From the NCBI RefSeq assembly GCF_031624495.1, contig NZ_JAMQOP010000002.1:806001-870000 (forward strand): 64,000 nucleotides of DNA, read 5' to 3'. The notes under the pieces are model-generated. The model did no database searches, was not told where the DNA came from, and saw nothing but the letters and a program-made list of their open reading frames with translations. This DNA is from Halogeometricum sp. S1BR25-6. GTDB lineage: Archaea; Halobacteriota; Halobacteria; Halobacteriales; Haloferacaceae. The position numbers and the translations under genes were made by a program. This document shows, piece by piece, positions 45,366-54,957 of the stretch (positions are counted from its first letter, which is position 1; the number at the start of each line of letters is the position of its first letter).

Positions 45366-45463
45366 GGCCGGGATTTGAACTTCACTCGCTAACGCTCGTG
45401 CGTTCAAATCCGCGGGTCCGCCTTTTACCTCACCACCTGTCGCGGCGCGACGAGACGCGCCGC
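45366..45463. repeat. Partial copy of the tRNA-Thr 3' end with hairpins
   Basis: GGCCGGGATTTGAAC (45366-45380) repeats bases 45491-45505 of the tRNA-Thr gene, i.e. its T-arm and 3' side. GGATTTGAAC (45371-45380) also pairs perfectly with GTTCAAATCC (45402-45411) around a 21-nt loop that carries GAGCGTTAGCGAG on the minus strand. A second hairpin, GCGGCGCG-ACGAGA-CGCGCCGC, covers 45442-45463. No functional tRNA can be folded here. The rest of 45285-45484 has no gene. Confidence 0.7.
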
Positions 45464-45484
45464 TCGGAGAGTGAGTTCGTTAAA

Positions 45485-45556
45485 AGCCTAGGCCGGGATT
45501 TGAACCCGGGCTCTCGTCCTTACCAAGGACGCGCTTTACCGCTAAGCTACCCAGGC
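45485..45556 (-). tRNA. tRNA-Thr (anticodon GGT)
   Basis: A 72-nt cloverleaf on the minus strand. The acceptor GCCTGGG pairs with CCTAGGC with one G-U pair; the D-arm is TAGCTTAGCGGTAAAGCG; the anticodon stem-loop CGTCC-TTGGTAA-GGACG gives GGT; and the T-arm is CCCGG-GTTCAAATCCCGG. The discriminator is U. No intron and no encoded CCA. It reads ACC/ACU codons and is a target for t6A37 made by KEOPS. Its T-arm sequence is duplicated 125 bases away. Confidence 0.93.
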
Positions 45557-48095: not shown

Positions 48096-48190
48096 GTGAG
48101 CGCCGATGGTCAATCGAGCGAAGCGAGATTGACCCCGGAGCGCGAGTGAACGAAGCGCGCCGATGTGTCACCGAACGCGGTGAGGTGACG
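48096..48190. repeat. Copy of the tRNA-Gly 5' end followed by three palindromes
   Basis: GTGAGCGCCGATGGTC (48096-48111) is an exact copy of 48206-48221, which covers the tRNA-Gly 5' end. Three hairpins follow, each with an 11-nt core: GGTCAATC/GATTGACC around GAGCGAAGCGA (48108-48134); GCGC/GCGC around GAGTGAACGAA (48140-48158); GTCACC/GGTGAC around GAACGCGGTGA (48167-48189). One arm of the first hairpin is made from the copied tRNA sequence. No gene lies between nadE and the tRNA. Confidence 0.75.
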
Positions 48191-48209
48191 CGCGGGGCGA
48201 ACAAAGTGA

Positions 48210-48280
48210 GCGCCGATGGTCCAATGGTAGGACATTAGCTTCCCAAGCTAATAGTCCGGGTTCAATTCCCGGTCGGCGCA
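48210..48280 (+). tRNA. tRNA-Gly (anticodon CCC)
   Basis: A 71-nt cloverleaf. The acceptor GCGCCGA pairs fully with TCGGCGC and A is the discriminator. The D-arm region is TGGTCCAATGGTAGGACA, the anticodon stem-loop TTAGC-TTCCCAA-GCTAA gives CCC, and the T-arm is CCGGGTTCAATTCCCGG. It reads GGG. No intron and no encoded CCA. Partial copies of both its ends occur next to it. Confidence 0.93.
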
Positions 48281-48344
48281 CTCCCTACGGTTGCTTGCCG
48301 ACCGACCGTCGCAGACCTGCGGTCTGCTCAGTCCCGGTCGGCGC
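48267..48344. repeat. Duplicated tRNA-Gly 3' end with an intervening palindrome
   Basis: TCCCGGTCGGCGC occurs at 48267-48279 (end of the tRNA gene) and again at 48332-48344. Between the copies lies GCAGACC-TGC-GGTCTGC (48311-48327), a perfect 7-bp stem whose loop reads GCA on the other strand. The arrangement looks like an element bounded by a duplication of the tRNA end. Confidence 0.7.

Positions 48345-52533: not shown

Positions 52534-54957
<2,424 letters not shown>

Follow-up and report, generated by a model that had tools for sequence, protein, structure and literature searches.

The window, i.e. the complete stretch of 64,000 nucleotides that was analysed, belongs to a 4.5-Mb genome of haloarchaeal type in nine contigs and harbors a tRNA-Thr(GGT) gene on the minus strand (45485-45556, called by ARAGORN and Rfam) that anchors a small hairpin unit. 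On this strand, the end of the tRNA-Thr is followed by a T-run, a first hairpin (hp1), an inverted copy of the T-loop (A'), a hairpin tip and the tRNA 3' end repeated in direct orientation (A''). The copied sequence (A) reaches from the T-loop to nt 73 of the tRNA and was delimited by repeat comparison (45486-45505, minus strand). hp1 lies between the tRNA and the inverted arm (45442-45463, minus strand, recognised from sequence and fold) and is composed of GCGGCGCG/TCTCGT/CGCGCCGC; the same stretch is also present downstream of tRNA-Ser(CGA) in this genome. The inverted copy A' follows at 45402-45411 of the minus strand as GGATTTGAAC, with GTTCAAATCC at the same coordinates. The tip, C[GA GC GTTA GC GA]G (45384-45398, minus strand), has a GNNA-type loop with two G-C pairs, and its tandem G.A mismatches form on the tRNA strand only. 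GAGCGTTAGCGAG is readable here on the minus strand (45385-45397), and the tip with its flanks reads CAC[GAGCGTTAGCGA]GTG. The direct copy A'' (GTTCAAATCCCGGCC, 45366-45380, minus strand, by repeat comparison) has 15 nt remaining; in the genome, most units have 21-24 nt.

The sequence-only reading of this locus had reported that 15 bases of the tRNA-Thr 3' half recur 125 bases away and pair with an inverted copy, which is confirmed. GGCCGGGATTTGAAC occurs at 45366-45380 and at 45491-45505 with a start-to-start distance of 125, and the copy pairs with the 10-nt inverted T-loop around the GAGCGTTAGCGAG tip. The complete A'-tip-A'' hairpin (hp2, 45371-45411, minus strand, from sequence and fold) comprises 41 nt and reaches -11.4 kcal/mol in a DNA fold (z = -5.6), which was equalled by none of 200 shuffles; the opposite strand reaches -10.1 kcal/mol. 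Within the 64-kb window, GATTTGAAC is found four times where 0.11 occurrences are expected. The exact GGATTTGAAC..GTTCAAATCC hairpin is a single occurrence in the genome.

The second tRNA gene considered in the window, tRNA-Gly(CCC) (48210-48281), is followed by a copy of its acceptor end (48332-48344, plus strand, seen in the sequence), TCCCGGTCGGCGC. Its unit is a variant, as the inverted arm copies the acceptor and not the T-loop. A second tRNA with the same architecture, as had been claimed from the sequence, is thus not provided by tRNA-Gly(CCC); it is provided by many other tRNA genes of the genome. The 5' end of tRNA-Gly(CCC) and the bases upstream of it (48206-48221) also have a 16-nt copy about 110 nt upstream (48096-48134). 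This copy is followed by a perfect 8-bp hairpin, GGTCAATC/GATTGACC with the tip GAGCGAAGCGA, a 5'-side counterpart of the units. Elsewhere in the window, two adjoining GNA-type hairpins with the arms ATAGAC/GTCTAT and TCCGAACG/CGTTTGGA are located in an intergenic region without a tRNA nearby (41029-41080). A dispersed repeat, in which ctttttggtccagctttttgcgagg or close forms stand next to GAGCGAAGCGAG tips, is seen at 54874-54940 and at two further loci (L318 and L320); it is apparently a further haloarchaeal repeat family.

Spread across isotypes and genera

The stretches around 47 Rfam tRNA matches of the genome were surveyed, and 45 distinct genes were examined. A copy of the gene's own 3' end is present 8-320 nt downstream in 20 of the 45, two of which are whole tandem tRNAs (Gly-GCC and Asp-GTC). 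The controls yielded an upstream copy of the 3' end in 3/45 and a downstream copy of the 5' end in 2/45, mostly the same tandem tRNAs. The sequence-only reading had proposed to inspect all tRNA loci, and similar arms, whose lack at other tRNA genes would have spoken against that reading, are found at many of them. The copies mostly extend from the T-loop to nt 73, and an inverted T-loop, read by eye, stands ahead of the copy in 15 of the 18 partial cases. The exceptions are Gly-CCC and Arg-TCT, which use the acceptor, and Tyr, which has neither arm. One unit follows a displaced 3' end that resembles that of tRNA-Thr(CGT), and this locus borders an apparent integrase element (L397, C1:1097900-1099500 of the same genome). 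At L320 (about 930-1060, C2:407600 of the same genome), a tRNA-like 3' end GAGTTCGACTCTCAGCGGTCCCA with a downstream copy was noticed outside the 47 Rfam matches; this may be an intron-bearing tRNA that has a unit of its own. The generic GAGCGNAGCGAG repeat was considered as the element and rejected. It occurs 50 times in the genome, and the occurrences read away from tRNAs are largely in coding-like sequence or in another dispersed repeat, so the element is the tRNA-linked hairpin and not the motif alone.

Members of the family are non-coding haloarchaeal units of about 110 bp, found downstream of tRNA genes either alone or in head-to-tail rows. Their order is hp1, the inverted local T-loop, a hairpin body carrying a GNA/GNNA tip and, as a direct repeat, about the last 21 nt of the tRNA from the T-loop to nt 73. 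Strict patterns that combine the T-arm palindrome with the tip matched 44 of 391 haloarchaeal genomes, and patterns with added T-loop variants matched 85 of 381. The mirror-image control of the palindrome-plus-tip pattern was absent from the matches listed. Among 30 loci fetched from the strict search, a tRNA lies within 1.5 kb in 26, in each case on the matching strand. A search for the palindrome alone in 84,980 species returned at least 120 stretches; in the 80 loci studied, most of the haloarchaeal ones are located behind a tRNA.

A covariance model was built from 38 hairpins, hand-picked from 116 listed and nearly all haloarchaeal. It matched 56 of 59 haloarchaeal genomes and 31 of 32 genera, with 1-24 matches in each genome where it is present. 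In the phylum sample, all 12 haloarchaea were positive and none of the 48 non-haloarchaeal genomes was, i.e. the hairpin units are restricted to haloarchaea within this sample. A same-strand tRNA lies 33-384 nt upstream in 31 of 32 inspected model matches, which were taken from the head of the list and from arrays that were visible; the remaining one is L397.

Similar layouts were noticed in other groups. In a Woesearchaeota MAG (L167, about 937-979), an inverted T-loop and then a direct copy of the 3' end stand behind a tRNA-Met, an example of this layout from outside the haloarchaea. In Nitrosocosmicus (L147, L181, L194, L209 and L214), GGATTTGAAC..GTTCAAATCC T-arm palindromes with tRNA-like right ends recur without a tRNA called nearby; perhaps they lie beside intron-bearing tRNAs. 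In viral contigs, T-arm palindromes are present in 40 stretches, and the haloarchaeal tip in 0 of the 39 matches listed. In two proviral contigs (L134, 10968-11016, and L110, 5285-5327), T-arm palindromes without the haloarchaeal tip are 57-61 nt away from a tRNA-Gln and a tRNA-Ser. When plasmids and phages were searched with the window unit, which is a weak test, only its tRNA part recurred among the matches listed; no extrachromosomal form of the unit was seen.

Architecture, strand asymmetry and arm covariation

A collection of 129 units was assembled from tip-conditioned searches (45), a perfect-arm scan (36) and the genome itself with its congeners (48); related units in it are not independent in the unit statistics. 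Since two of these sources select for tip or arms, tip and arm counts are reported separately for each group. The 9-nt arms are exact complements in 87 of the 129 units, compared to 57.1 after shuffling (maximum of 68 in 2000 shuffles). By group, exact complements are found in 38/45 of the tip-conditioned units (22.0 shuffled) and in 14/48 of those from the genome and its congeners (6.7 shuffled); the palindrome-scan group is uninformative by design. A' is present with at most one mismatch in 9 positions in 124 of the 129 units. The arms also covary: in alignment A1, both sides are changed in 25 cells, compared to 6.6 after shuffling, a level reached in 0 of 500 shuffles.

The tip is confined to one strand. 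In the two groups that were not chosen by tip, GA-NN-loop-NN-GA is found on the tRNA strand in 23/36 and 36/48 units (1.3 and 2.3 shuffled) and on the opposite strand in none of the 36 and 48. The loops in these groups are GNA or GNNA in 20/26 and 35/46 cases, and the inner tip pair changes from G-C to A-T with both sides changing together. According to the published rule, GNA or GNNA loops that are closed by two G-C pairs make DNA mini-hairpins extraordinarily stable (PMC4686876). Of the 129 units, 113 fold better on the tRNA strand with DNA parameters and 115 with RNA parameters; as both prefer the same strand, folding energy cannot separate DNA from RNA. The distance from the inverted to the direct core is narrow (median 34 nt, 10-90% range 28-41). 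The unit interiors measure 51-188 nt in 66 segments and are too short for ordinary-sized genes. All palindromes seen in the inspected units are internal.

Chance as an explanation is rejected on the repeat count in the window, the tRNA survey, the strand counts of the tip, the covariation and the fold shuffles. The earlier judgement that coincidence is unlikely is strongly supported, with downstream copies at 20 of the 45 tRNA genes and a hairpin that is haloarchaea-wide.

The suggestion that the variable arms are templated by neighbouring sequence is supported in part, as a correlation, in the identity of the arms and in their likeness to the local tRNA end; the bodies are common to several isotypes. 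Across the genome and three congeners, 240 of 281 significant pairs of interiors are alike across isotypes. The inverted arm tracks the local T-loop and shows partial likeness to the local tRNA end beyond it. The outer A' scores a mean likeness of 0.406 to the local tRNA vs 0.273 to other isotypes, and a score of at least 0.5 is reached in 51 of 182 cases (12.0 expected). When the T-stem is excluded, the match signal is weak (3.68 vs 3.46 permuted); it is clearer with the T-stem bases included. Templating by the acceptor only was discarded, given its weak signal once T-loop and T-stem are left out. The arms may match the local tRNA through copying or through selection for pairing.

Gain, loss and reordering between congeners

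The tRNA-Thr region was compared across 40 genomes, including the one studied here. In the congener G004, the same hairpin is present at tRNA-Thr with the loop GCCA instead of GTTA, and in G002 and G003 a differently capped hairpin takes this position. In the congener G001, a 3.4-kb insert splits tRNA-Thr from the right flank of the window's copy and encodes a gene that reads as a tyrosine recombinase; G003 has an integrase-like gene at tRNA-Thr. The site thus serves for attachment; distinct from this is the hairpin unit, which two congeners have in common.

When four congeners were compared at 21 isotypes, the number of units differed at 20; the isotypes were mostly those with units in the genome studied, and the stretches compared reach 700 nt downstream. 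Some tRNAs are without any unit. An exact empty site is seen at tRNA-Arg(TCG), where a unit and its copy in G000 are followed by the flank that adjoins the bare tRNA in G001 (33/36), compatible with gain or loss. The order of units differs between species at at least three tRNAs (Met, Ser-GGA and Ser-CGA). Behind tRNA-Lys(TTT) of G066, four identical 111-bp units stand in tandem, and their inverted arm corresponds to the tRNA end over nearly its full length.

The ends of six tRNA-gene elements were searched for the inverted T-loop. An integrase gene was recognised beside or inside three of them, in L271 by a partial match. The inverted T-loop was found at 0/6, the best candidates having 3-5 mismatches in 10 positions, which is the random level. 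The inverted arm is consequently no general attP feature, and the units were rejected as parts of integrase elements on these 0/6 ends. A simple attachment-site explanation in relatives, which had been named as an argument against templated arms, applies by half: the integrase elements at the same tRNA-Thr bring in attachment-site biology, but the six element ends examined lack the inverted arm. Such elements are positioned between a tRNA and a pre-existing unit. In Haloferax larsenii (L271, 2900-6710), tRNA-Glu is directly followed by a complete unit that falls barely within an integrase element of 3.5 kb. Another unit, whose hairpin is the same, lies beyond the attR of this element, which may have carried a unit along.

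Possible origin and relation to known systems

The units are possibly non-autonomous cassettes that are mobilised in trans, and their folded strand may act at the T-loop in the manner of attC in integrons; we assign this reading a probability of roughly 0.37. The tRNA strand would fold with its inverted T-loop paired to the direct copy, and this pairing would turn the T-loop core double-stranded within a folded single strand. A putative tyrosine recombinase acting in trans would exchange the folded core with the T-loop of the tRNA at about G|TTC, in a presumed recombination step that resembles the action of the integron integrase on folded attC. One arm would always be the local tRNA end, while the other would be kept matched by selection for pairing or by fold-back copying. 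Use of the site as a folded single strand would explain why a core has an inverted core next to it. The layout shared with attC and the absence of the inverted arm from the six element ends favor such an attC-like, trans-mobilised cassette. Against it stand the absence of an integron integrase above the cut-off from 59 haloarchaeal genomes and the plasmid and phage searches, in whose listed matches only the tRNA part recurred. Slippage or unequal recombination can likewise produce order swaps and losses between 22-nt direct repeats. If a core came from a different isotype, the tRNA would receive a wrong acceptor end, so spread between isotypes would need an extra step. More doubtful is the wider proposal of a haloarchaeal tRNA-docked integron-like system, in which the T-loop, common to most tRNA genes, would be the docking site, the host would supply the tyrosine recombinase, and folded-strand cassettes of about 110 nt would have one arm rewritten at each tRNA.

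Fold-back copying is an unlikely origin of the units. A strand switch would occur twice at stable mini-hairpins while the tRNA 3' end is replicated or repaired, or copying would proceed round a dumbbell with the tRNA end as its stem; A, hp1, A', tip and A'' would be left, and arrays would then grow by slippage. The A-hp1-A'-tip-A'' order is the outcome of two snap-backs, and the closeness of the outer A' to the local tRNA, the G066 arm that fits nearly the whole tRNA end and the four identical units in a row agree with it as well. The bodies and hp1 families, however, are common to different tRNAs and genera and are thus not made afresh from local sequence, and the match outside T-loop and T-stem is weak. 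Rather less probable is that the units are scars of tyrosine-integrase elements that decayed to about 100 bp, with the hairpin as attP sequence and the array changes as slippage. Direct repeats of a tRNA 3' end are described as a hallmark of such integration (PMC8371274); tRNA-Thr of G001, where the right flank is the same, holds the integrase element of 3.4 kb, an integrase element lies at tRNA-Thr of G003, and a 16-kb element is located at tRNA-Leu in L256. Yet none of the six element ends examined carries the inverted T-loop that nearly all units possess, the unit size and the core-to-core distance are narrow, and elements are inserted between a tRNA and a unit that was already there.

An RNA role is improbable. 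The hairpins would act in the post-tRNA transcript as back-up terminators or as trailer processing or stability elements and would be kept by selection. This would agree with the tip on the tRNA strand, with the compensatory changes and with Haloferax volcanii, in which transcription can terminate at hairpins (PMC7237163). The unit number varies at almost every isotype and some tRNAs are without units, however, and the acceptor-end copy serves no obvious RNA purpose. Several loops are moreover GNNA and not GNRA (GACA, GTCA, GGCA and GTTA), which fits DNA better. An insertion of the units by a Cas1/casposase-like integrase that duplicates the tRNA end as its target site is very improbable. The A. 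boonei enzyme is described to read TCAAATC, which equals the T-loop sequence here, and to insert beside or in a tRNA-Pro gene (PMC6614799). Its 14-15-bp duplication is reported downstream of TCAAATC, though, whereas the duplication here includes TCAAATC, and no terminal inverted repeats were seen in the units inspected.

The arrays resemble integron arrays in their head-to-tail units at one anchor and in the reordering of these units. attC sites are described as hairpins with imperfect pairing, whose more stable strand is rich in purines and which contain a spacer without pairing, extrahelical bases and a tip that varies (PMC5371416); the units likewise form imperfect hairpins with inverted core copies at the base, a purine-rich, more stable strand, asymmetric linkers and a variable apical part. 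In contrast to integrons, they have no genes, their core is the tRNA T-loop and their arms follow the local tRNA. A search of the 59 haloarchaeal genomes for the integron integrase (TIGR02249) gave 0/59 above the 265-bit cut-off (best 63.3 bits). The haloarchaeal hairpin arrays are not an integron.

With archaeal tRNA-targeted elements (SNJ2-type, pNOB8-type and others), the units share the direct repeat of the tRNA 3' end and the tRNA genes used. They differ in their size of about 110 bp, into which an integrase gene would not fit, and in the inverted T-loop; integrase genes are found in separate larger elements. REP/BIME sequences are also dispersed short intergenic palindromes, whereas the units have arms that match the neighbouring tRNA and a location tied to tRNA genes. 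In CTX-phi, attP is a folded single strand in which two inverted core sequences form the recombination site. The units fold by two inverted cores as well and differ by having no phage genome and apparently no Xer/dif core. The small mobile repeats SMR-A of Haloquadratum are described as about 110 bp long, with an unknown mobiliser, and insert into IS605-type elements without target duplication (PMC3119063). The units are like SMR-A in size, in the absence of coding capacity and in being haloarchaeal, and unlike SMR-A as described there in being sited at tRNA ends, which are repeated on both sides.

Partial tRNA genes left by integrated elements are well described (PMC9897764, PMC8371274). No description of tRNA-anchored hairpin arrays was found in the titles, abstracts and text passages covered, with subscription papers outside their scope.

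If the cassette reading is right, at least a third of the tRNA genes of a haloarchaeon would carry small arrays of selfish or useful hairpins, with the tRNA end as their address. The arrays would be an archaeal counterpart of integron arrays and a natural case of DNA arms that are re-matched to a neighbour. They would account for many of the partial tRNA sequences behind haloarchaeal tRNAs and would give single-stranded DNA hairpins a testable role in archaeal genome change. Under the plainer alternatives too, the units are a strong and countable marker of recent change at tRNA genes.
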